Shown: positions 349 through 9,963 of the stretch, piece after piece | How the letters are laid out: each line of letters begins with the position of its first letter | How positions within the stretch are numbered: position 1 is the stretch's first letter | Assembly: GCA_012974305.1 (NCBI GenBank) | Contig: JAAXQN010000060.1 | Location: forward strand, 1 to 32,500 | Origin: Candidatus Methylomirabilis sp. | GTDB lineage: Bacteria; Methylomirabilota; Methylomirabilia; Methylomirabilales; CSP1-5 | DNA length: 32,500 bases | Direction of reading: 5' to 3' | Translations under genes and position numbers: made by a program | The notes under the pieces: generated by a model | Databases searched by the model: none | Told to the model about the DNA's origin: nothing | The model's input: only the letters and a program-made list of their open reading frames with translations

Positions 349-1617
349 CTAGTTCTCCGGTTCGAAATGATAACGCCAGGGTTTTTCAACCCTCCATTGC
401 GCGAAGCGTGCTGCTATCTCTATCGCTTTCTTATTGGTGAGCCACCATTTATAATCGAGTCGGAGGACATTACCAGCATTCTCCTTTGCAGTCGGAAGGT
501 ATTTTCGGACACTATCGTCGATAAAAGCCATCGCAGATTTACGAACAGGCGCATACGATATGTAGTTTGCATGAACAGCCATTCGCTTCGGATCGCTTGC
601 AAATACAATAAAATCGAGTGCCTTTTTAAGGTTGACCGTTCCTTTGGGGATCACCCAGACCACAATGTCCCAGACCTGGCCATCCCAGACAATCGCAAGG
701 TCTTCGTTACGCTTTCTGATCGCATCCAAGATTCCGCCGCTATAGGCCCAGGTCATCACCACCTTCTTGTTGCGAAGAACCTCTAAAGGTTGGAGGGGAT
801 CGTCCTCCAACCACACAATATTCCCTTTGATTCGATCGAGTACCTTGAAAGCGCGATCCACGCCGGAATCGGTCGACAAAACCTGATATACTTGGTCAAC
901 AGGGACCCCATCCGCCATTAACGCCCATTCCAGATTGACCACAGGAGAATTGCGCAAACCACGCACACCGGGGAATCTCTCGAGATCGAAGAAGTCTGCG
1001 AGCGCAGAGGGCTTCCCTGCAGCCAACTGATCAGCATTGTAGGCGATCACCATCGCATAAATAGATTCACCGACGGCACAATCTTGTAGAGCTTCCGGAT
1101 AGAAATCATCGACCGCTGACCTTCCAAGGACAGCGCGATCGATTTTTTCCAACAAACCCTCTTCACAGGCCCGAATCGCATCAGCAATCTCGATGTCTAC
1201 CACGTCCCACTTGACGTTGAGCCGACGGACCTGGTCACGAATCTGTGCCAACCCCCCATTATAGTGCTCCACATTCACCCAACGGTTTTTCATTTCGCGG
1301 TATGGGTTAACAAAGGCCAGCATCTGGCTTTTCGTATAAGCCCCACGCCCCCTGCTAACCACCGTCAAGGGGGGTTTACCTGCAATTGGCTCGGCCTGCA
1401 GTGACCCCGTGGAGACAAAAAAGGTGACAATAGCAAACAACCCAATCCGTTCAAGCCTGGATCTTTTAAAAATATGCGGTATACTCAGGCAGTCTGAAAC
1501 GTACTGTTGACAAAAGCAAATGAAGTACCGTCGCAGAGTACCCATCAATCCAGCAGCGCTGGGGCGTGTCCCACTGCTGATTTGTCTCTCTTCATAAAAT
1601 GTATTTGTGCGTTCCAT
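349..1617 (-). CDS. PotD/PotF-like extracellular solute-binding protein
   Basis: A periplasmic substrate-binding protein of the spermidine/putrescine type (COG0687, solute-binding family 1). The mature part has the order expected for the family: LTVVSRGRGAYTKSQ near the start, WDVVDIE, an NADQL-type hinge region, VMTWAYSGG and ASDPKRMAVHANYISYAPV near the end. Substrate is unknown. I chose the ATG at 1617 because a GAGG lies 6 nt before it; an ATG at 1662 is an alternative. Both leave an unusually long N-terminal stretch of 50 or more residues before the hydrophobic signal segment (GLFAIVTFFVSTGSLQA), so the N-terminus may be rearranged. No permease or ATPase gene adjoins it. It sits between two broken lipoprotein copies, which suggests it arrived with the rearrangement. 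Confidence 0.75.
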   Translation of the reverse strand: MERTNTFYEERQISSGTRPSAAGLMGTLRRYFICFCQQYVSDCLSIPHIFKRSRLERIGLFAIVTFFVSTGSLQAEPIAGKPPLTVVSRGRGAYTKSQMLAFVNPYREMKNRWVNVEHYNGGLAQIRDQVRRLNVKWDVVDIEIADAIRACEEGLLEKIDRAVLGRSAVDDFYPEALQDCAVGESIYAMVIAYNADQLAAGKPSALADFFDLERFPGVRGLRNSPVVNLEWALMADGVPVDQVYQVLSTDSGVDRAFKVLDRIKGNIVWLEDDPLQPLEVLRNKKVVMTWAYSGGILDAIRKRNEDLAIVWDGQVWDIVVWVIPKGTVNLKKALDFIVFASDPKRMAVHANYISYAPVRKSAMAFIDDSVRKYLPTAKENAGNVLRLDYKWWLTNKKAIEIAARFAQWRVEKPWRYHFEPEN

Positions 1618-1748
1618 TTCAAACCTCGATATATGAAAATAGTGAGAGCTCCTTTCCCGCATAACAAGAGGCCTTGGAAAGCCCCCTCAATGGGGCGAAG
1701 GCAATCTCCCCATGTTATATGTCAAACTAAGAAATCTTCCGCTCCCGA

Positions 1749-1986
1749 TTAGGCTTTGCCATTGACAGCCATCCGCCGACTTTTCCGGCTGTTTCTTTTG
1801 TTCACGCTCGGACTCGGTTTTTTCTCCCCCTTATACTTTTCCTCTCTGTCCTTCTGCGGAGCCTTCGGCCCCAGGATTACCCACTCACCCTCTGATCCGG
1901 TGAAGAGTCCCTTCTCCGGTCCCTCCTCCCGGTCGTTACGAGGCTCGTAAGGCTTGATGCCGGTGCACCCGGTGACCAACAATGCC
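1749..1986 (-). pseudogene. Lipoprotein gene, 5'-truncated copy
   Basis: This is the 3' part of the lipoprotein whose 5' part lies at 1-122. The reading frame carries LLVTGCTGIKPYEPRNDR and continues into a charged tail ending MAVNGKA. The start codon and most of the signal peptide are missing because the DNA jumps at 1986/1987 directly into the porin gene. The frame stays open into the porin sequence (to about 2138) but that extension is just porin DNA in another frame. Without its signal peptide this copy should not make a lipoprotein. Confidence 0.6.
1921..1986. repeat. Direct repeat copy 2 (66 bp, perfect)
   Basis: Identical to 1-66. Beyond 1986 this copy resembles position 131 onward, so relative to the first copy it lacks 64 nt (67-130). 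The missing segment held the porin's stop codon and the lipoprotein's start. Confidence 0.9.
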
Positions 1987-3402
1987 CACCCTTGCCCCGA
2001 TTGATAGCACGCCGATGTCATGGACACTGGGCTCAACATCCCGATCGAGCGAATAGAGGCGAAAGAGTCCGTAAAGCTCAGTGCCGTACTCCTCGAATTC
2101 CTGGACCACCGCCAGACCGACCGAATACCCGTCGTCATTTTCCGTGGGAAGATTCTGACCTCGGGTGTAATCGACGCTAAAAGCCGTCGTGCCGAAGGAG
2201 AAGAATCTCGTCAGCCATCCAGCCTTGGCGTAAAAGTTTGTGGGATCACTCTGCTTGTCACGCTTCTTCGTACCGGCAGACAGGCTGAGATTCAAACCGG
2301 TGTCCTCATGCAATAGTGAAAAGGAGCCTTGGTATTGAAAGTCGGTGCCACCCTCGTTGGGATCACCGATACCACCAGCTCCTGCGGCCTTGAAGCCATA
2401 GCCCTGCCCTCCCCAATACAAAGCCGCATCATAGCGATCATCGCTGTTAGCCGAGGCAGCGAGGTGTAAACCATAGAATATGGGCGAGTCATAGCGCACC
2501 CTGTTTTTCCGGACCAAGCCGTCAAAACTATTGTAGGCATCAACGATCCTGACATTCGTGAGGGTGTCGTCACTTTCTTGCCGAAACAACATCCCCCCGG
2601 CAAGATCCGAGATCGTTGGGGTTGCGATCACGGTGGTTCCGGATAGATCGGATGAGGCGGTGCCGTAGGTTGCCGTGTTGCCCTTGCCTAAGGAAAGCTT
2701 GCCGAAGCGCTTGCTGTCAAGGAAAACCTCAGTGATGCGCTGATCGAAAATGTCGCCGGTCTCTTGGTTAGTCTGACTGACGTTACTGGCCTTATTCGGA
2801 GCAATTGTGAGTACAATATTCGAGCCGAGGGTCAAGTCGTCGGTGACCTTGGCGGTGCCAAAAAAGCGGACACGACTTTCGCTGTTGTCGTTGTCGACGT
2901 AGTAGGGCTTGGTGCTTTTGCCGTCATCAACGATGTTCACGGCTCGGTTGACCCACCCTGAGATGGCGAGTTTAACCCGCTCCTGACCGGAAGTAACGAC
3001 CTTTTCAACGGGCGCCTGCACGGTTGTGTTCTTTTCTTCGGCCATAGACTTGGCTTCTTTGGCCTCGGTTTGCGCCTCGGTGGCTGTTTTTTTCAATTGG
3101 TTCACCTGTTGTTGTAAAGATTCCAACTGTTGCTGTTGTTCCTCGATGAGGCGTTCCAGCCTTTCAACTTTTTCGGAGTTTACGGTTCCCTCCTCAGCCG
3201 CAACCGTGCTTACAAAAAACACCTGGACTGCCAGCAACAGCACGACCAAAATGATGAATGTACTTCGTTCTCTTATCACCTTAACACGCTGCAACTCCTG
3301 CACTTTTTCGGCATCCTGGGCGAACGCCGGCATCGCAAGGAATCCCAGACCGATGGTTTCACCAGCCAAAAGCAGAAGGTGGAGCAAGGAAAAAGTTTTC
3401 AT
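1936..3402 (-). CDS. Outer-membrane porin with coiled-coil N-terminus; chimeric, altered C-terminus
   Basis: A beta-barrel porin of 488 residues, with a coiled-coil segment (about 76-125, rich in Gln and Glu) ahead of a barrel of alternating strands, as in porins of Proteobacteria and NC10-like bacteria. The start at 3402 has a perfect AAGGAG six bases upstream. Two export signals follow each other: residues 1-28 (ending AFA-QD) and a second basic-hydrophobic segment at about 41-69 (ending VAA-EE). The short piece between them, EKVQELQRV, looks like the start of another porin's coiled coil, so two porin 5' ends seem joined. The last 16 residues (GIVGHR onward) are lipoprotein DNA read in the wrong frame, and the usual terminal Phe is lost. 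Folding by the BAM machinery may be impaired. Confidence 0.8.
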   Translation of the reverse strand: MKTFSLLHLLLLAGETIGLGFLAMPAFAQDAEKVQELQRVKVIRERSTFIILVVLLLAVQVFFVSTVAAEEGTVNSEKVERLERLIEEQQQQLESLQQQVNQLKKTATEAQTEAKEAKSMAEEKNTTVQAPVEKVVTSGQERVKLAISGWVNRAVNIVDDGKSTKPYYVDNDNSESRVRFFGTAKVTDDLTLGSNIVLTIAPNKASNVSQTNQETGDIFDQRITEVFLDSKRFGKLSLGKGNTATYGTASSDLSGTTVIATPTISDLAGGMLFRQESDDTLTNVRIVDAYNSFDGLVRKNRVRYDSPIFYGLHLAASANSDDRYDAALYWGGQGYGFKAAGAGGIGDPNEGGTDFQYQGSFSLLHEDTGLNLSLSAGTKKRDKQSDPTNFYAKAGWLTRFFSFGTTAFSVDYTRGQNLPTENDDGYSVGLAVVQEFEEYGTELYGLFRLYSLDRDVEPSVHDIGVLSIGARVGIVGHRVHRHQALRAS

Positions 3403-3968: not shown

Positions 3969-4931
3969 CTAATACCGATCGAGGATCACCTTTGCCACGC
4001 GGTCCGGAACATCGATCATCGGCCAGTGGGCCACGTCCGGCCACTTGTGGAGCTCGATCTTCGGCTGCATGTCCTTCCACGCGTCCGCCATCTTCACGAC
4101 AGAGACCGGATCCAGCTCACCCCAGAACATGCTCACAGGCCCGTTGAAATTGATGATTCCCGCCTGCCAGCGCTGCAGAAACTTCTTTCGCTGTATCATG
4201 TAGCGGATTTGGCGGTTGAATACCCGATCACCCTCGTTCTTGAGGATCTGGTCCGCCATGATACTGAGGGTTTCCTCGCTGGCCGGGTGGGCCTTGCCGA
4301 AGCTGTCGTTGAGGTCCTTCATGATGACCTTCTTGGTCATATCAGGGCCGAGGGTATCCGGTGCTTTAAGCCCTTTTATCTGCATGGGGAGGAGGTTTAC
4401 GAGGTTGATCAGCGTGGAACCGTTGAAGACAATCGCGTGCCGGATCTTGAACGGGAGCGTCCCTTCCTGCTGGCGCTTCATCAGCTCCGAACCGACCGAC
4501 TGGCCCATGTCGTGGATAACCAGCATGACCTCGGTCAGCCCTTCCTGCTTGGCCACGGCCTCATACAGGTCGGCCTGCTTGAACAGCGAGTAGTGATCTT
4601 CGAATGTCCCCGTCTGCGGCTTGTCGCTCTGGCCGAAGCCGACCATATCGGGTATCACCACGCGCGTCCGTTTCGCCACTTGCGGCACGACCCCGGACCA
4701 ATCCCAAGACGAGCCGGGAAAACCGTGCACGATGAGGACGCCATGGCCCTTCGTCTCCGCCTTGCCCGCGGTGACGAGGAAGATCTTGTATCCGTTGGCT
4801 TCAATGAACCGGCCCTGGTCGATCCATTCCTGGAGACCAGCGAGTTTAGTGCGTTGCGCTTCTGCTCCGACGCTACCGAACGGCACCGTCGCAAGCGACA
4901 AGGCGACGATCATAATGCACAAATTTTTCAT
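3969..4931 (-). CDS. Secreted alpha/beta hydrolase, epoxide hydrolase / haloalkane dehalogenase type
   Basis: A 320-residue alpha/beta hydrolase with a Sec signal peptide (residues 1-25, ending VGA-EAQ), so it should act in the periplasm. The oxyanion motif HGFPGSSWDW is at 69-78. The nucleophile elbow reads VIHDMGQ with Asp141, which is the pattern of epoxide hydrolases and haloalkane dehalogenases rather than the Ser of esterases. Asp274 (GELDP) and His302 (VAHWP) complete a plausible triad. The start at 4931 has GGAGG five bases upstream; a longer frame to 5066 has no such support. About 130 nt upstream is a promoter/operator block shared with the AcnX operon and the Mla operon, which suggests a common regulator. 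Substrate unknown. Confidence 0.85.
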   Translation of the reverse strand: MKNLCIMIVALSLATVPFGSVGAEAQRTKLAGLQEWIDQGRFIEANGYKIFLVTAGKAETKGHGVLIVHGFPGSSWDWSGVVPQVAKRTRVVIPDMVGFGQSDKPQTGTFEDHYSLFKQADLYEAVAKQEGLTEVMLVIHDMGQSVGSELMKRQQEGTLPFKIRHAIVFNGSTLINLVNLLPMQIKGLKAPDTLGPDMTKKVIMKDLNDSFGKAHPASEETLSIMADQILKNEGDRVFNRQIRYMIQRKKFLQRWQAGIINFNGPVSMFWGELDPVSVVKMADAWKDMQPKIELHKWPDVAHWPMIDVPDRVAKVILDRY

Positions 4932-5126: not shown

Positions 5127-5435
5127 CTAGGGAAGAGCTTGAGGAGTGGAGGGTGCTTCTGCGGCTTTTTGTTTGGAAGGAAGCCTTTTCCGACAAGGAT
5201 TGGCGGGTTCCTGGGGGCCGTCGAGGCTGTCCGGGTACGCGTCACCACGCGCGCCGGCTTCCGGACCTGCGTGTGCAACGCCGGTTGTCGCCATCGCCGC
5301 CAGGATGCAACCCAACAAGACGATCAAGACAATCCACGGGATCGAAGAGGCCCTCTGCAAGCCGGGGCCTCGAGACGATCCGGTGTGCCGGTATCGAGCA
5401 ATTGCCAGGTCGGTCACGGGTTCAGCCCATCGCAC
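5127..5435 (-). CDS. Possible small single-span membrane protein
   Basis: A 102-residue frame with a GTG start at 5435, 15 nt after the stop of the SDR gene and in the same direction. A GGGTGG lies upstream of the GTG, a weak ribosome binding site. The only feature is one strong hydrophobic segment (IPWIVLIVLLGCILAAMATT) followed by AHAG, which could be a membrane anchor or an internal signal peptide. The rest is low-complexity and rich in Pro, Arg and Lys. I recognise no family. Its position at the end of the exported-enzyme operon is the main reason to list it. Confidence 0.35.
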   Translation of the reverse strand: MRWAEPVTDLAIARYRHTGSSRGPGLQRASSIPWIVLIVLLGCILAAMATTGVAHAGPEAGARGDAYPDSLDGPQEPANPCRKRLPSKQKAAEAPSTPQALP

Positions 5436-5450
5436 GCAATTGCCACCCTG

Positions 5451-6404
5451 CTATGCTCCAAATGGCTCCATCCCAACGTTGTTAAATCCTCCGGCGATCG
5501 GGAAGAAATTGCCGGTCGTATACATGTTGTACCCATCGAGCAGGGCCACGGTGAAGTGTGCAGCCTCAGCCGTTTCTCCCAAACGCCGCATCGGGATCTC
5601 ATCCAGTATTTTCTGGAAAGCCTTCGGGTCGTCTTCGACACCCGCGGCATGCTTGAAACCAGGATAATTCATAAAGTTGGTGCCGACCACATTGACGGTA
5701 ACCCCCTTCGCCGCAACCGTCATGGCGGCGCAGCGGCACATCATGTTCGCGGCTGCGCGCATAGTGCTGTAGGCCATCAAGGTCGGTTGTGGTTTTTCAC
5801 CCGTTGCGCTGGTCTGTACCACGACCTGGCCGGCTCCGGCCGCCACCAGTGGCGGAAGCACGGCCTGCAAGCCGTACATCACTGCCAGCAGGTTCTGCTC
5901 ATAGTGAATCATCAAGCCCTCGGCAGACGTGTTCAGGATGTCCCCTTGAGGCGCATGTATCGCGGTGCGGATGAAGGCCGAATCAAAACCGCCAAATCTG
6001 TCCATCGCGGCATCAACCACCTTCTGGATGGCCCCCGGCTTGCTTTCGTTGTTCGGACCCTCTTGCTCGAGGCCGGGAACAACGACGACGTCTGACGCAC
6101 CGAGTCCGCGCAACTCTTTGGGCAGTCCTTTACGCACATCGGCGATCACCAGGTTGTAGTTGCGCTTGGCAAATTCGCGCGCCAGAAACGGCCCGATGTT
6201 CAATTGGGTATCGGTGATGACGATGGTACGTATACCGGTCTTCGAGTTGGTCTTCAGTTTGGCCCCCGGTGCTTTGGGCTGTGCCCATGCTGTATTCATA
6301 CCAACGCCGGCTGCAGCAATGCCTGCCGCTCCAACCACCCCTGCCTTCAGCAAATCACGGCGATTGATGCCTTTTCCATCCTGTTCTTTTTTGTCCGAAC
6401 TCAT
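5451..6404 (-). CDS. Tat-exported SDR-fold protein with altered active site
   Basis: A 317-residue protein with a Tat signal: NRRDLLKAG at 14-22, then an Ala/Gly-rich hydrophobic run to AWA-QP (about 42). The start at 6404 is supported by AAGGAGG nine bases upstream. The rest follows the short-chain dehydrogenase/reductase fold, but three signature motifs are changed. The cofactor motif TGxxxGIG reads TDTQLNIG (64-71), the NNAG position reads TAIH, and the catalytic YxxxK reads Y212-STM-R216. A Ser (199) is present before it. It may bind a different ligand or be non-catalytic. It is third after the two AcnX genes and the BKACE gene. Export of an NAD(P)-type enzyme is unexpected because the periplasm lacks a known NAD(P)H pool. 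Confidence 0.8.
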   Translation of the reverse strand: MSSDKKEQDGKGINRRDLLKAGVVGAAGIAAAGVGMNTAWAQPKAPGAKLKTNSKTGIRTIVITDTQLNIGPFLAREFAKRNYNLVIADVRKGLPKELRGLGASDVVVVPGLEQEGPNNESKPGAIQKVVDAAMDRFGGFDSAFIRTAIHAPQGDILNTSAEGLMIHYEQNLLAVMYGLQAVLPPLVAAGAGQVVVQTSATGEKPQPTLMAYSTMRAAANMMCRCAAMTVAAKGVTVNVVGTNFMNYPGFKHAAGVEDDPKAFQKILDEIPMRRLGETAEAAHFTVALLDGYNMYTTGNFFPIAGGFNNVGMEPFGA

Positions 6405-6539
6405 GATCACGTCCTCCTTTTTGCTTATTGTGCCTTCGTTTGAATTGCTCGATGCCGCACACGGCGGCACGGTGATTCCAGAATCCTGCGAGGCTTCCCG
6501 GATCGCGATCCTCGTGAAGGAAGCCACGCCGGGATCGAC

Positions 6540-7562
6540 CTAAGCTTTAGGCCACGTCGCCGCATACGGTATATCCAGATACTTTATTGCTTCGGCCCCG
6601 GTAACGACCTTGCGTCCGACCCCATCGATAATCTCTTTGGCGCGTTTCAACTGTTCCACATTACTGGTCCCGTTGGGCCAGTCCTCGAGCCCCACGCGGA
6701 AGCTGCCGCCCCGTTCCAGGGCCAGGCGAGCCAACGGGGTATCCATGACGCTTTTTTTGCCGATATAGCCGACGGACCATTTCAAATCCATGCCTTCTAT
6801 CATCTTCAGGTAGAGCTCGAGCGCTTCCGGTATGGGTGGTGCCATTCCGGCATAACTGTCCGATGCAAAGTAGATGTTGAGTTTTGACCCGCGCGGCAGG
6901 GTGCCGGCTCTGACCATCGCTACGACGTTCTTCATCCAGCCGGGCTCGAACACCGAGATCGAGGCGCCTGTCCCCAGGTCTTTGCAGGTTTGCAGAATGT
7001 AGCGCACATCGTCCGGCCAGAAGCCGTACCAGAAGAAGGCAGAATCCGGGCCGGGCACTCCTTCTTTGTCGTATACACCCAAAGGAACGACACCGGTGTC
7101 GAACAATACCATATTGGCCAGCCCGGCCTCAGCCAGTATACGTTGGTGACCGCATTGCACTTTGCCGATCCATGCTCTTCGGGTCCGGTTATAGACTTTC
7201 GGATCAAAGTTTGCGGTCGCGTAGAGGATCGCATGCGGATGCTTATTCCAGACGGGCCTGTACGTTTCCATGTAAGGTTGGGCGGCTTTCTTCGGGTCTT
7301 CATTCGGCTGGTTCGAGTGGCTATGGACAATCGTGGCGCCAGCATCCAGGCAGCGGATGATCTCTGCGGCCTGTTCGCTCGGCGTCTCCGGGACTAGCGG
7401 GTTCTTGGCCTTGGTGGTCGATCCGTTGATGGCGCATTCGAGAATAACCGGCGTATTTTCTACGGATTTTCTCGTAGCCGCCGATGCGGCGCGTACCGCC
7501 GGACTGACTGCTAACAATGCGCCGGCACCGGCCAGTGTTCCTATGAATTCTCTTCTTTTCAT
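6540..7562 (-). CDS. Tat-exported BKACE-family (DUF849) enzyme
   Basis: A 340-residue member of the beta-keto acid cleavage enzyme family (DUF849, PF05853). Known relatives condense a beta-keto acid with acetyl-CoA using Zn2+. The fold and metal site look intact: VIHSH-like His80 and His82 (TIVHSHS), then R289 and E293-D294 in FRVGLED, matching the metal and substrate ligands of 3-keto-5-aminohexanoate cleavage enzyme. It starts with KRREFIGTLAGAGALLAVSP, a clear Tat signal ending near VRA (25). The ATG at 7562 has GAGG five bases upstream; a longer frame to 7694 lacks support. It follows the AcnX small subunit by 10 bp. Export of a CoA-dependent family is odd, so the reaction may differ. Confidence 0.85.
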   Translation of the reverse strand: MKRREFIGTLAGAGALLAVSPAVRAASAATRKSVENTPVILECAINGSTTKAKNPLVPETPSEQAAEIIRCLDAGATIVHSHSNQPNEDPKKAAQPYMETYRPVWNKHPHAILYATANFDPKVYNRTRRAWIGKVQCGHQRILAEAGLANMVLFDTGVVPLGVYDKEGVPGPDSAFFWYGFWPDDVRYILQTCKDLGTGASISVFEPGWMKNVVAMVRAGTLPRGSKLNIYFASDSYAGMAPPIPEALELYLKMIEGMDLKWSVGYIGKKSVMDTPLARLALERGGSFRVGLEDWPNGTSNVEQLKRAKEIIDGVGRKVVTGAEAIKYLDIPYAATWPKA

Positions 7563-7572
7563 TTTATCCTCT

Positions 7573-8022
7573 TTAGCCGACCTCAACCGTGCCGTCCGCG
7601 TGGATGGCGATCGGATCGCCCGTGTTAACAGCCTTGAGGAACTCGTCGCCGAGCAGATCGATCGTGATGATGCGCCTCTCGTTCCAGATGTCACTCATGT
7701 AGAGACCTGCGGCTGAGACGGCGTCGACGTGCCAGGCGTACAGAAGTGCCTTGGGACCGACTCCCAGTTCGGTCATGCCCATCAAGACGCATCCGCCCAG
7801 GGTTGAACCGACGCCCTGTGTAGTGCAGATGATGGCCCCTTTGAGATCCTTCCCGTACAGATCCTTGTTGGCCGCATCTGTGCAGATGGCCTTTTTTGTT
7901 TCTCCTGCGAACATATTGTTCAAGTAAGATCCGCTCGTGTTGAACGCAACACGTGACACCAACGCCTTTCCCTTGAGGTTGCCGGGAAGTACGGCTCTCC
8001 CTTGAAATGTTTTCTTAGCCAT
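7573..8022 (-). CDS. Aconitase X swivel domain, small subunit (DUF126)
   Basis: A 149-residue protein of the AcnX small-subunit family (PF01989). Typical features are the opening GRAVLPGNLKGKALVSRVAF, a KDLKGAIICTTQGVGSTLG loop matching the family's conserved Gly/Ser-rich loop (usually GRGSSSGS), and a C-terminal D-x-V beta core. The GRGSSSGS core reads QGVGSTLGG here, a partial match. It lies 64 bp after the large subunit, as expected for two-gene AcnX enzymes, and has AGGAG upstream of the ATG. It has no signal peptide, although the large subunit has a Tat signal, so if the enzyme is exported this subunit would have to travel bound to its partner. Confidence 0.85.
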   Translation of the reverse strand: MAKKTFQGRAVLPGNLKGKALVSRVAFNTSGSYLNNMFAGETKKAICTDAANKDLYGKDLKGAIICTTQGVGSTLGGCVLMGMTELGVGPKALLYAWHVDAVSAAGLYMSDIWNERRIITIDLLGDEFLKAVNTGDPIAIHADGTVEVG

Positions 8023-8086
8023 TTTGTTGCTCCTGTTTTGAATTGCAGATTTGATTGTTGTTATCCATTCTTTTCAGTCCCAACAC

Positions 8087-9610
8087 TTACGCACCCCTGG
8101 GTATCTTTCCCGTCACGATGATCTCGAGTAGAACGTCGTCCGGGAAGTACCGGATGGAGGAATAGTTCCGGGTCTTGGCCGAGTTCGTGACGCCACGAAC
8201 CCTTTCGGAGAAACCCTTCATGCCCGCGTAGCTCACGCTGCACATGTTGGTAGGCCGCATGCCGGCCCGCCTCATCGCCCCGGCCAATTCGGGCTCTTCC
8301 TCGATGAGCCGGGCTCGCACCACATTTGCTAAGAACATGTAAACCGGGATCGCGGCCTTTTCCTTGCCAGCCTTCTTCAGCGCCTCGGTGACCATTTTGC
8401 CCCACTTGACGGTCTCCTGGTACGTGTTGTGCGGACAGCCGATAAAGCAGGCCGTGGGATCGGCGTCCTTGTCTGGCCAGAGGTTTTTGAAGGCGGCGCG
8501 CACGCGCTCTTGCTCGGCGTCGTCGATAACGTAGGTCTTGTAACCTTTGACCAGCAATTTTCGCCCTTTCTCCTTTGCGTCGGGGGTAACTCCTTCTACA
8601 TGGTACAACCCGACCGCGCCACTGGAGGCTGTTGCACTTCCCATGGCTTTCAGCAAGTGCATGTTCTCGTTGGTGACCTTGCCGCCGAAATACTTTTCAA
8701 GGCCCGTGATGTATGGGACGTCCTCTACCACCTTCCCGCCAATAGCGGTACCCACCACCCCCCAGTCCGGCTCCTTTGTGGTCTTCACCTCGACCAGCCA
8801 CTTGGCCATGCGGCCCTCGTCGGTCATGAGACCGAAACGGGGAGCCTTGCCCAGCAGGGCGCACAGCAACTCCATTCCGGTCGCATTGCGGTTTGTCCGA
8901 ATTCCGAGAACGGAATTGCCGTAGTTGACGGCAGACGATTCCGCCCAGGCCACGTAGGTTCCCGGCTTGGGAGCATTACCGACCTCGTCCACGTAGCAAG
9001 TGCAGCTTCTGTAGTTCAGGTCCGGCGCGCCGAGTCGGGAGTGGATATAGTCCACGTCTCGCTGAAGCGCGTAACCCTCGTAGATCAACTCGATGTCTTT
9101 GGCATTGTTGTTGACGTTGTACACGTCGTAGGGGCGCGGGTTGACCGTGTAGGGCGCATAGGCCTTGAGCCCGGCGTCGGCGCACTCATCGAAGATCTTG
9201 ACCAGCGGCGCCATGTAAGCCACACCGAAAAACATGGAGGAGTGACAAGCACCGCCAAGTTCCACGAGTTTGTCAGCACCAAAGGCGTTGCCGTGGGCGA
9301 CGACGATTTTCATGACCTTGGCCATGACCTCACCCTTCGATCCGTTCAGGATGTCCTTCTCCTCCCTGGTGAGACGCATCTGGTGGGGTTTCTTTGATTC
9401 ATCCTTGGTTCCGGCACTCCGGCCTGATATCACGTTCATGTCGGAGTGCAGGATCTTCCCCGCATAGTCCGGAAGGGTACCGGCCCCGGATGCACCAGAG
9501 GATGACTGTGCGGCGACCTTCCCGGCTTGGACCTTCCCGTCCTTAGCATAGAGCATACTGGGTAGCAGCGGCAGCGTGGCAATCACTTTGATGAATGATC
9601 TACGCTTCAT
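8087..9610 (-). CDS. Aconitase X catalytic subunit (DUF521) with Tat signal
   Basis: A 507-residue AcnX large subunit (PF04412). Characterised members are iron-sulfur dehydratases acting on cis-3-hydroxyproline or on mevalonate 5-phosphate. Family landmarks are MRLTREEKDILNG (78-90), the AWAESSAVNYGNSVLGIRTN block (221-240), the GCPHNTYQE loop with Cys392, and RPTNMC with Cys457; Cys203 and Cys205 are further possible ligands. The family normally begins near residue 78. Here about 75 extra residues come first, opening with KRRSFIKVIATLPLLPSMLYA, a twin-arginine signal. Tat export would fit a protein that must carry a folded metal cluster. The ATG has AAGGAGGAG upstream. It is the first gene of the operon, behind a promoter block at 9684-9770. 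The substrate is unknown. Confidence 0.88.
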   Translation of the reverse strand: MKRRSFIKVIATLPLLPSMLYAKDGKVQAGKVAAQSSSGASGAGTLPDYAGKILHSDMNVISGRSAGTKDESKKPHQMRLTREEKDILNGSKGEVMAKVMKIVVAHGNAFGADKLVELGGACHSSMFFGVAYMAPLVKIFDECADAGLKAYAPYTVNPRPYDVYNVNNNAKDIELIYEGYALQRDVDYIHSRLGAPDLNYRSCTCYVDEVGNAPKPGTYVAWAESSAVNYGNSVLGIRTNRNATGMELLCALLGKAPRFGLMTDEGRMAKWLVEVKTTKEPDWGVVGTAIGGKVVEDVPYITGLEKYFGGKVTNENMHLLKAMGSATASSGAVGLYHVEGVTPDAKEKGRKLLVKGYKTYVIDDAEQERVRAAFKNLWPDKDADPTACFIGCPHNTYQETVKWGKMVTEALKKAGKEKAAIPVYMFLANVVRARLIEEEPELAGAMRRAGMRPTNMCSVSYAGMKGFSERVRGVTNSAKTRNYSSIRYFPDDVLLEIIVTGKIPRGA

Positions 9611-9963
9611 GGTCTACTCCTCCTTCTGTTATTTGTTATTCGGTGAGAGCAAAAGGATAAAGGCTAAGAGTTTGCTTTTGTTGAGCCTGACAAAATTATA
9701 TTTGGTTGTCAATAGATGAAAACCCTGTATTTCTATTCGGCAAAAGCACCATGGTTTGCATAGGCAACAATGCTCTGGTTTACCTGGGCAAAACACCTAT
9801 GCCCCTGGTGCGGCGATTTCTGGTAGCAGCATGGTAGCAAGAGCTGACGTGGTGGACACGGCACAACGTGACATTTCGTGACCGAAAAACCCTACAGCTT
9901 GACACTTCTCGTCCAGTGGAGGGATACTTTAGGGCCACAACGCAATTGTAGGTCCAATTTATC
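9611..9963. other. Intergenic region between divergent AcnX operon and apaH
   Basis: About 350 bases between divergently transcribed genes. It holds the shared operator/promoter copy 2 (9684-9770) reading left. A further partial operator-like half-site (ACCTATG) lies near 9797-9803. I see no convincing sigma-70 promoter for apaH and no small gene. Confidence 0.5.
9684..9770 (-). promoter_or_regulatory. Shared operator plus promoter, copy 2 (drives the AcnX operon)
   Basis: Read leftward: CCTATG-caaac-CATGG, the best palindrome of the three (9749-9764), then GAATAGAAATACAGGG, then a -35 TTGACA (9707-9712). The half-site to -35 distance is exactly 50 nt. At 17 nt spacing the -10 is CAGGCT (9684-9689), weak but with the conserved A and T. 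An alternative is TTTTCA (9717-9722), 16 nt, TATAAT (9695-9700). The AcnX large-subunit gene starts 74 nt beyond. Confidence 0.6.

Follow-up and report, generated by a model that had tools for sequence, protein, structure and literature searches.

The operon examined here, in a 32,500-nt stretch of DNA from Candidatus Methylomirabilis sp. (the window), raises the question of whether an aconitase X (AcnX) and the enzymes encoded with it act outside the cytoplasm. No exported member of the aconitase superfamily is known to us, and the open-access library searched contains no paper that connects "aconitase X" to the "Tat pathway" or "halohydrin dehalogenase" to "twin-arginine". The characterized AcnX Type II members are treated as cytoplasmic (PMC8184944). 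Relatives of the two other tagged enzymes likewise normally work inside the cell.

Operon layout and export signals

All genes of the cluster are encoded on the minus strand. The AcnX large subunit (AcnX-L, 507 aa, 8087..9610; PF04412, E 7.6e-79) is followed by the small subunit (AcnX-S, 149 aa, 7573..8022; PF01989), which carries no signal, by a DUF849/BKACE-family TIM barrel identified by Pfam and fold matches (340 aa, 6540..7562, with its ATG at 7562; PF05853, E 8.8e-41), and by a halohydrin-dehalogenase-like SDR-fold protein (317 aa, 5451..6404; PF13561 and PDB matches). The original prediction of tight spacing and strong ribosome-binding sites is borne out, with gaps of 64, 10, and ~135 nt and good sites before the four genes (AAGGAGGAG, AGGAG, GAGGA, and AAGGAGGA). 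A promoter-like TTTTCA-16-TATAAT lies upstream of AcnX-L at 9722-9695. Beyond a doubtful gene, a 102-aa ORF with one hydrophobic segment and no Pfam match (5127..5435), the same strand encodes an alpha/beta-hydrolase of the epoxide-hydrolase/haloalkane-dehalogenase type (3969..4931; PF00561, with PDB and NCBIfam matches), a porin-like outer-membrane protein (1936..3402), and a periplasmic solute-binding protein (349..1662; PF13416, E 3e-35), all three with Sec-type signals. The porin-like protein was recognized by its hydrophobic signal, coiled coil, and beta-rich sequence, its family matches being weak and of the coiled-coil type only.

Tat signals were called by the presence of an RR motif, a moderately hydrophobic uncharged h-region, and an A-x-A-like cleavage site in a genome possessing tatC; TatC is encoded in this genome. 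As predicted, AcnX-L, the DUF849 protein, and the SDR-fold protein each bear such a signal; besides the RR motif and the A-x-A-like end, all three contain an uncharged stretch that spans 14-23 residues. The AcnX-L signal occupies residues 1-22 (MKRRSFIKVIATLPLLPSMLYA, 9545..9610) and has a 14-residue uncharged run; that of the DUF849 protein (MKRREFIGTLAGAGALLAVSPAVRA, 7488..7562) has the same layout, as does the 41-aa signal of the SDR-fold protein, which contains NRRDLLK and ends in AWA (...GINRRDLLKAGVVGAAGIAAAGVGMNTAWA, 6282..6404). The three tagged genes had been described as consecutive, but the untagged AcnX-S lies between the first two. A deliberately loose version of the rule was positive for 17 of 499 ORFs of at least 200 aa, and the window accounts for six of these. 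When the sequences were inspected, true Tat-like h-regions among the 17 proved to be confined to the three window proteins and an SDR-fold protein of a myxococcal genome, G631, the others resembling lipoproteins, membrane segments, or spurious frames. Three Tat signals in one operon are far above the chance rate of the loose rule. Together with the three Sec-type signals, this makes six of the seven recognizable products predicted envelope proteins.

Active sites of the tagged enzymes and the alpha/beta-hydrolase

Comparison with characterized AcnX enzymes places the window pair in Type II, as PF04412 and PF01989 occur as separate genes and all listed residues are kept: the Fe-S ligands Cys203, Cys392, and Cys457, Glu224-Ser225, Lys479, and Tyr483 in AcnX-L, and an invariant catalytic Ser in the GST motif of AcnX-S. 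This two-subunit layout and residue set are found alike in TkAcnX, a mevalonate-5-phosphate dehydratase, and in AcnX IIa, the cis-3-hydroxyproline dehydratase (PMC8184944). Unlike TkAcnX (PMC8184944), the window protein has an N-terminal extension and a Tat signal and does not keep the phosphate-binding residues Gly48-Val49-Ser50 and Asn53, Ser50 being replaced by Ala and Asn53 by Pro in an alignment made by eye. The alignment to TkAcnX thus sets it apart from the mevalonate-5-phosphate dehydratases (AcnX IIb), and it reaches 134 bits in the NCBIfam cis-3-hydroxyproline dehydratase equivalog, whose cut-off is 700. In AtAcnX, of the cis-3-hydroxyproline dehydratase type (AcnX I/IIa), proline is bound by Trp35, Thr72, Asp203, and Ile206. 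The window AcnX appears to lack the known substrate determinants; types IIc-f have been reported without landmark residues. The roughly 75 residues originally seen as added to AcnX-L are indeed an N-terminal addition, but one that resolves into the 22-residue signal, a spacer, and an extension of 35-40 residues common to untagged relatives. Iron-sulfur hydro-lyases are often oxygen-sensitive, which counts against a periplasmic AcnX.

The third tagged enzyme has the SDR fold that had been predicted but is not an ordinary NAD(P) dehydrogenase, an assignment ruled out by its missing nucleotide motif and by its best PDB matches, which are of the HheG type (1.5e-45, versus ~1e-14 for NAD(P) SDRs). 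In place of the NAD(P)-SDR motifs TGxxxGxG and YxxxK it has ITDTQLNIG and YSTMR. Its nearest solved relatives are the HheG-type halohydrin dehalogenases (PDB 7wkq, 8h8y, 5o30; PMC4989007, PMC11976700), with which it shares the absence of the nucleotide-binding glycine motif and the Ser-Tyr-Arg triad of halohydrin dehalogenase motif 2, S-X12-Y-X3-R (SATGEKPQPTLMAYSTMR). Motif 1 of that family, T-X4-F/Y-X-G, is represented by T-DTQL-N-I-G, in which Thr and Gly are kept and the aromatic residue is Asn. The protein also differs from the HheG-type enzymes in its predicted export and its linkage to AcnX. On these motifs it is best termed halohydrin-dehalogenase-like rather than filed as a member of the family. 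Its AlphaFold model was poor (pLDDT 53) and was left out of the analysis.

The DUF849 protein matches the folds of Kce and cis-epoxysuccinate hydrolase and has the BKACE fold and metal site, with the His/His/Glu ligands kept; the metal ligands of this protein and the iron-sulfur ligands of AcnX had both been predicted to be intact, and all align. Kce and other BKACEs (PDB 2y7d-g, 8rip) and BsfD (PMC12871164) share with it the DUF849 TIM barrel, the His-His-Glu site, and a nearby Arg and Asp. It differs from Kce in that the catalytic Tyr (Kce Tyr145) is Phe, Glu14 and Glu143 are absent, the loop after the metal Glu is shorter by about six residues, and a Tat signal is present. The catalytic Tyr is said to occur in all BKACEs, and BsfD, whose chemistry is divergent, likewise has Phe (PMC12871164). 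In the alignment, the CoA-contact residues of the shortened loop (BsfD Tyr251 and Lys254) are missing. The Tyr-to-Phe change and the short loop rule out a plain BKACE. The D-forming cis-epoxysuccinate hydrolase (PDB 5zmu/5zmy; PMC6429283) is similar in being a metal-dependent enzyme of the DUF849 fold, but it uses Glu14 as a ligand, where the window protein has a Kce-type Glu; with this third ligand missing, an identity as cis-epoxysuccinate hydrolase (D) was rejected as well. The existence of that hydrolase indicates that the family is capable of CoA-free epoxide chemistry (PMC6429283).

The alpha/beta-hydrolase has HGFP and an Asp nucleophile in HDMG. It resembles Cif and other alpha/beta epoxide hydrolases (PMC8244358) in the H-G-X-P motif with aromatic X and the Asp nucleophile and, like Cif, appears to be secreted; it differs in the Met after the nucleophile, and no Tyr-Tyr or His-Tyr pair for orienting and opening the epoxide ring could be assigned.

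The degenerate CoA-contact and nucleotide sites support, at the residue level, the predicted chemistry without CoA or NAD(P)H, soluble cofactors that would be lacking beyond the cell membrane. DUF849 proteins make few contacts with CoA, however, and the short loop does not prove that the window protein makes no use of it.

Relatives and origin of the region

A second AcnX copy is present on another contig of the same bin. The first 87 nt of its gene, covering the signal region, are identical (87/87), while identity is 82% in the adjoining extension and 91% in the core; the upstream (promoter) region at 9614..9796 is also common to both copies (93% over 183 nt). The pairing of a dehalogenase-like protein with AcnX recurs in L060, L005, L006, and G631, an actinomycete and three myxococcal MAGs, and the dehalogenase-like relatives in L060 and G631 are likewise closest to HheG. 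AcnX lacks a signal in L060, L005/L006, G384, and G631. An apparent N-terminal match in L061 was discarded because a stop interrupts the reading upstream, and L061 has no signal.

An ordinary cytoplasmic pathway, in which the extensions are not working export signals and CoA and other soluble cofactors are used as in L060, would fit these untagged nearest relatives. It would also fit the gene neighborhoods of some of them: CoA-transferase genes are among the neighbors in L060 and G384, indicating a cytoplasmic route there, and TPP-enzyme genes also lie near some relatives. We nevertheless consider it improbable for the window, given the full Tat layout in three of three signals, an AcnX signal that the second copy retains intact although the following 47 codons have diverged, the degenerate CoA and NAD(P) sites, and the Sec-type signals of the neighbors. 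The original prediction had taken homologues without signals as evidence against export, and this is half the case: the closest AcnX relatives outside the genome are untagged, but the G631 SDR-fold protein bears its own, independent Tat signal, and this homologue aligns with the window SDR-fold protein from residue 11. With TatC encoded in the genome, export of the tagged enzymes is likely.

In G631 the tagged dehalogenase-like protein adjoins an AcnX that has no tag; a common compartment is thus not required for the two. This would fit signals that are functional but were gained piecemeal by enzymes serving different purposes, such as detoxification by a periplasmic dehalogenase-like protein to which AcnX is unrelated. 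The DUF849 gene also lies beside AcnX only in the window, its relatives adjoining an aldehyde dehydrogenase. Against such piecemeal tagging, which we regard as unlikely though a serious competitor, stand the tight operon with its good ribosome-binding sites, the occurrence of three tags in one operon beside Sec-type neighbors, and an AcnX-SDR linkage kept across phyla. A single shared periplasmic pathway seems somewhat the better account of the window genes.

No relatives of the cluster were found in the 94 other genomes of the class (95 including this one) or in a scan of the viral_contigs set, and a plasmid search recovered relatives only at ~38% identity or below, for example in Rhodococcus opacus PD630, whose neighboring SDR is an ordinary TGxxxGIG/YxxxK enzyme. 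The first 9.7 kb of the window are compositionally foreign, with a tetranucleotide correlation of 0.76-0.80 versus ~0.98 elsewhere. Deviant composition and absence from the class would also be produced by a binning or assembly artefact, including a chimeric contig, that placed a foreign operon in this genome. This is very improbable, since positions 21.8-32.5 kb of the same contig are collinear with a same-genus genome (74-84% identity) and another AcnX copy lies on a second contig of the bin; mis-binning would in any case leave the reading of the proteins unchanged.

A proposed envelope module

The best explanation as a whole, and one we hold to be somewhat probable, is that the gene cluster was gained by horizontal transfer and specifies a set of catabolic proteins that work together in the cell envelope. 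Tat would export AcnX-L once it has folded in the cytoplasm with its iron-sulfur cluster in place, and the untagged AcnX-S would be carried along, a hitchhiker mode of export established for other Tat substrates. The DUF849 and halohydrin-dehalogenase-like proteins would each be exported through Tat by a signal of their own, and Sec would export the alpha/beta-hydrolase. The porin may admit the substrate, and the solute-binding protein may hand the product to an importer, although none was seen up to the contig end. The enzymes would require at most a bound metal or Fe-S cluster. AcnX would add or remove water, the dehalogenase-like protein could open or close an epoxide, halohydrin, or similar group through its Ser-Tyr-Arg triad, the alpha/beta-hydrolase may cleave an epoxide or carbon-halogen bond hydrolytically, and the DUF849 protein may carry out a metal-dependent reaction without CoA. 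More tentatively, at slightly less than even confidence, we propose that the Tat-exported AcnX heterodimer is the center of a CoA- and NAD(P)H-free periplasmic route for epoxides, halohydrins, or hydroxy acids, served by a re-tooled BKACE-family protein together with a halohydrin-dehalogenase-like protein.

If true, this would represent a carbon-catabolic module relocated to the periplasm along with the loss of its soluble-cofactor sites. It would also offer a way into the uncharacterized AcnX types IIc-f and into unusual DUF849 subgroups, and would bear on the question of what role halohydrin dehalogenases play in nature.

Gene cluster, export signals and origin

Positions 1-9.6 kb of the window are filled by seven genes with recognisable products, all on the minus strand. 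These encode the large (AcnX-L, 9610-8087) and small (AcnX-S, 8022-7573) subunits of an aconitase X, a DUF849/BKACE-family protein (7562-6540), an SDR-fold protein (6404-5451), an alpha/beta-hydrolase (4931-3969), a porin-like protein (3402-1936) and a solute-binding protein (1662-349). AcnX-L, the DUF849 protein and the SDR-fold protein carry N-terminal twin-arginine (Tat) signals, in which the twin arginines precede a stretch of 14-23 uncharged residues of moderate hydrophobicity that leads to an A-x-A-like end. Sec-type signals were recognised by inspection in the alpha/beta-hydrolase, the porin-like protein and the solute-binding protein; none is present in AcnX-S. Of the 499 ORFs in the window and the loci carrying relatives, 17 matched a loose Tat rule, and the only real-looking signals among these, by inspection, are those of the three window proteins and of one relative's SDR. 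TatC is encoded in the genome, and the tagged enzymes are predicted with high confidence to be exported. The 66 nt at the contig end (1-66) recur exactly at the 3' terminus of the porin-like gene (1921-1986), which points either to another copy of a porin-like gene or to an assembly broken at the repeat.

The right part of the window (21.8-32.5 kb) aligns collinearly with a genome of the same genus (74-84% nucleotide identity), and thus the contig belongs to this genome. Positions 1-9.7 kb are lower in GC content and differ in tetranucleotide usage (correlation 0.76-0.80, versus approximately 0.98 for the right part); the operon was most likely acquired horizontally. Between the two (9.9-21.8 kb) lie genes for polyphosphate kinase, a CHAD protein, polyphosphate:AMP phosphotransferase, adenylate kinase and Mla components, the adenylate kinase reaching at best 53% identity within the 2.0 Mb compared of the same-genus genome.

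Predicted properties of the enzymes

The window AcnX is of Type II. Cys203, Cys392 and Cys457 of AcnX-L align with the three iron-sulfur cysteines of TkAcnX, a known mevalonate-5-phosphate dehydratase, and Glu224-Ser225, Lys479, Tyr483 and the Ser of the small subunit are conserved. In contrast, the phosphate-binding residues of TkAcnX are not retained, consistent with reports that types IIc-f lack the landmark residues of both known activities. The added N-terminus of AcnX-L is composite, with the signal at residues 1-22 and an extension (approximately residues 43-77) common to untagged relatives.

A predicted model of the DUF849 protein (pLDDT 76.5) matches Kce and cis-epoxysuccinate hydrolase (TM-score about 0.8, by target length). 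The protein shares with Kce the His-His-Glu metal site as well as Arg226 and Asp231, but it lacks Glu14 and Glu143, has Phe in place of Tyr145, and is some six residues shorter in the loop that follows the metal Glu. In BsfD this loop holds two of its few CoA contacts and a Tyr-to-Phe change accompanies non-BKACE chemistry, while a related hydrolase of the fold acts on an epoxide without CoA; CoA-independent chemistry is therefore likely for the window protein. An untagged DUF849 subgroup at loci L081 and L082 and plasmid loci L084 and L085 also has a shortened CoA-contact loop and lacks Kce Glu14.

The best solved relatives of the SDR-fold protein are HheG-group halohydrin dehalogenases (1.5e-45), whereas other SDRs reach only about 1e-14. 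It possesses the Ser-X12-Tyr-X3-Arg motif and lacks a glycine-rich nucleotide motif. Since the motif 1 aromatic residue of halohydrin dehalogenases is Asn here, we name the protein halohydrin-dehalogenase-like rather than class it as a member. These enzymes have a nucleophile pocket in place of the nucleotide site, and by analogy no need for NAD(P)H is expected. The alpha/beta-hydrolase contains HGFP and an Asp nucleophile (HDMG), which together mark epoxide hydrolases and haloalkane dehalogenases, and is a candidate member of this group.

Relatives and a second AcnX copy

Among 95 same-class genomes, AcnX, DUF849 or SDR proteins of the window types were found, at the thresholds used, only in the window's own genome. 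The nearest relatives of the window AcnX come from an actinomycete MAG (L060, 74-76%), myxococcal MAGs (L005 and L006, 68-69%; G631, 55%) and a mycobacterium-like genome (G384, 55%), and none of these AcnX proteins has a signal. A dehalogenase-like gene lies upstream of AcnX-L/S in L060, L005/L006 and G631, and HheG-group enzymes are likewise the best solved matches for the SDR-fold relatives of L060 (5e-44) and G631 (5e-60). In L060 (6137-7432) and L006 (514-1722), a secreted SGL/beta-propeller-type protein is encoded between the dehalogenase-like gene and untagged AcnX-L/S. The G631 dehalogenase-like protein (locus L078, 2271-3314), which adjoins an untagged AcnX, carries a Tat signal; it is 45% identical to the window protein in an alignment starting at residue 11, with a still more divergent motif 1 (VDTETHMM). 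The AcnX and dehalogenase-like pair is thus conserved across phyla, with tagging of the dehalogenase-like partner seen twice and that of AcnX so far only in the window genome.

A second AcnX-L copy in this genome (contig C233; L003 3084-4340) is cut by the contig end and has an identical signal. Compared with the window gene, identity is complete over the first 87 nt, 82% in the 47 codons that follow and 91% in the core; the 183 nt upstream are 93% identical. That the signal is conserved while the adjoining spacer diverges suggests that the signal is under selection or that gene conversion took place recently. Searches of the genome found no second AcnX-S or DUF849 gene.

A proposed envelope module

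A single shared pathway is a weaker claim than export, as only one partner is tagged in G631 and CoA-transferase genes occur in the clusters of L060 and G384. The simplest reading of the cluster is an envelope module, in which a small substrate would enter through the porin, be worked on in the periplasm by cofactor-independent enzymes, and yield a product passed on by the solute-binding protein. Tat would be a fitting route for AcnX as an iron-sulfur protein, and AcnX-S may cross the membrane with AcnX-L as a hitchhiker, a mode of export with known precedent. Based on the enzyme types, the substrate may be an epoxide, a halohydrin or a hydroxy acid.
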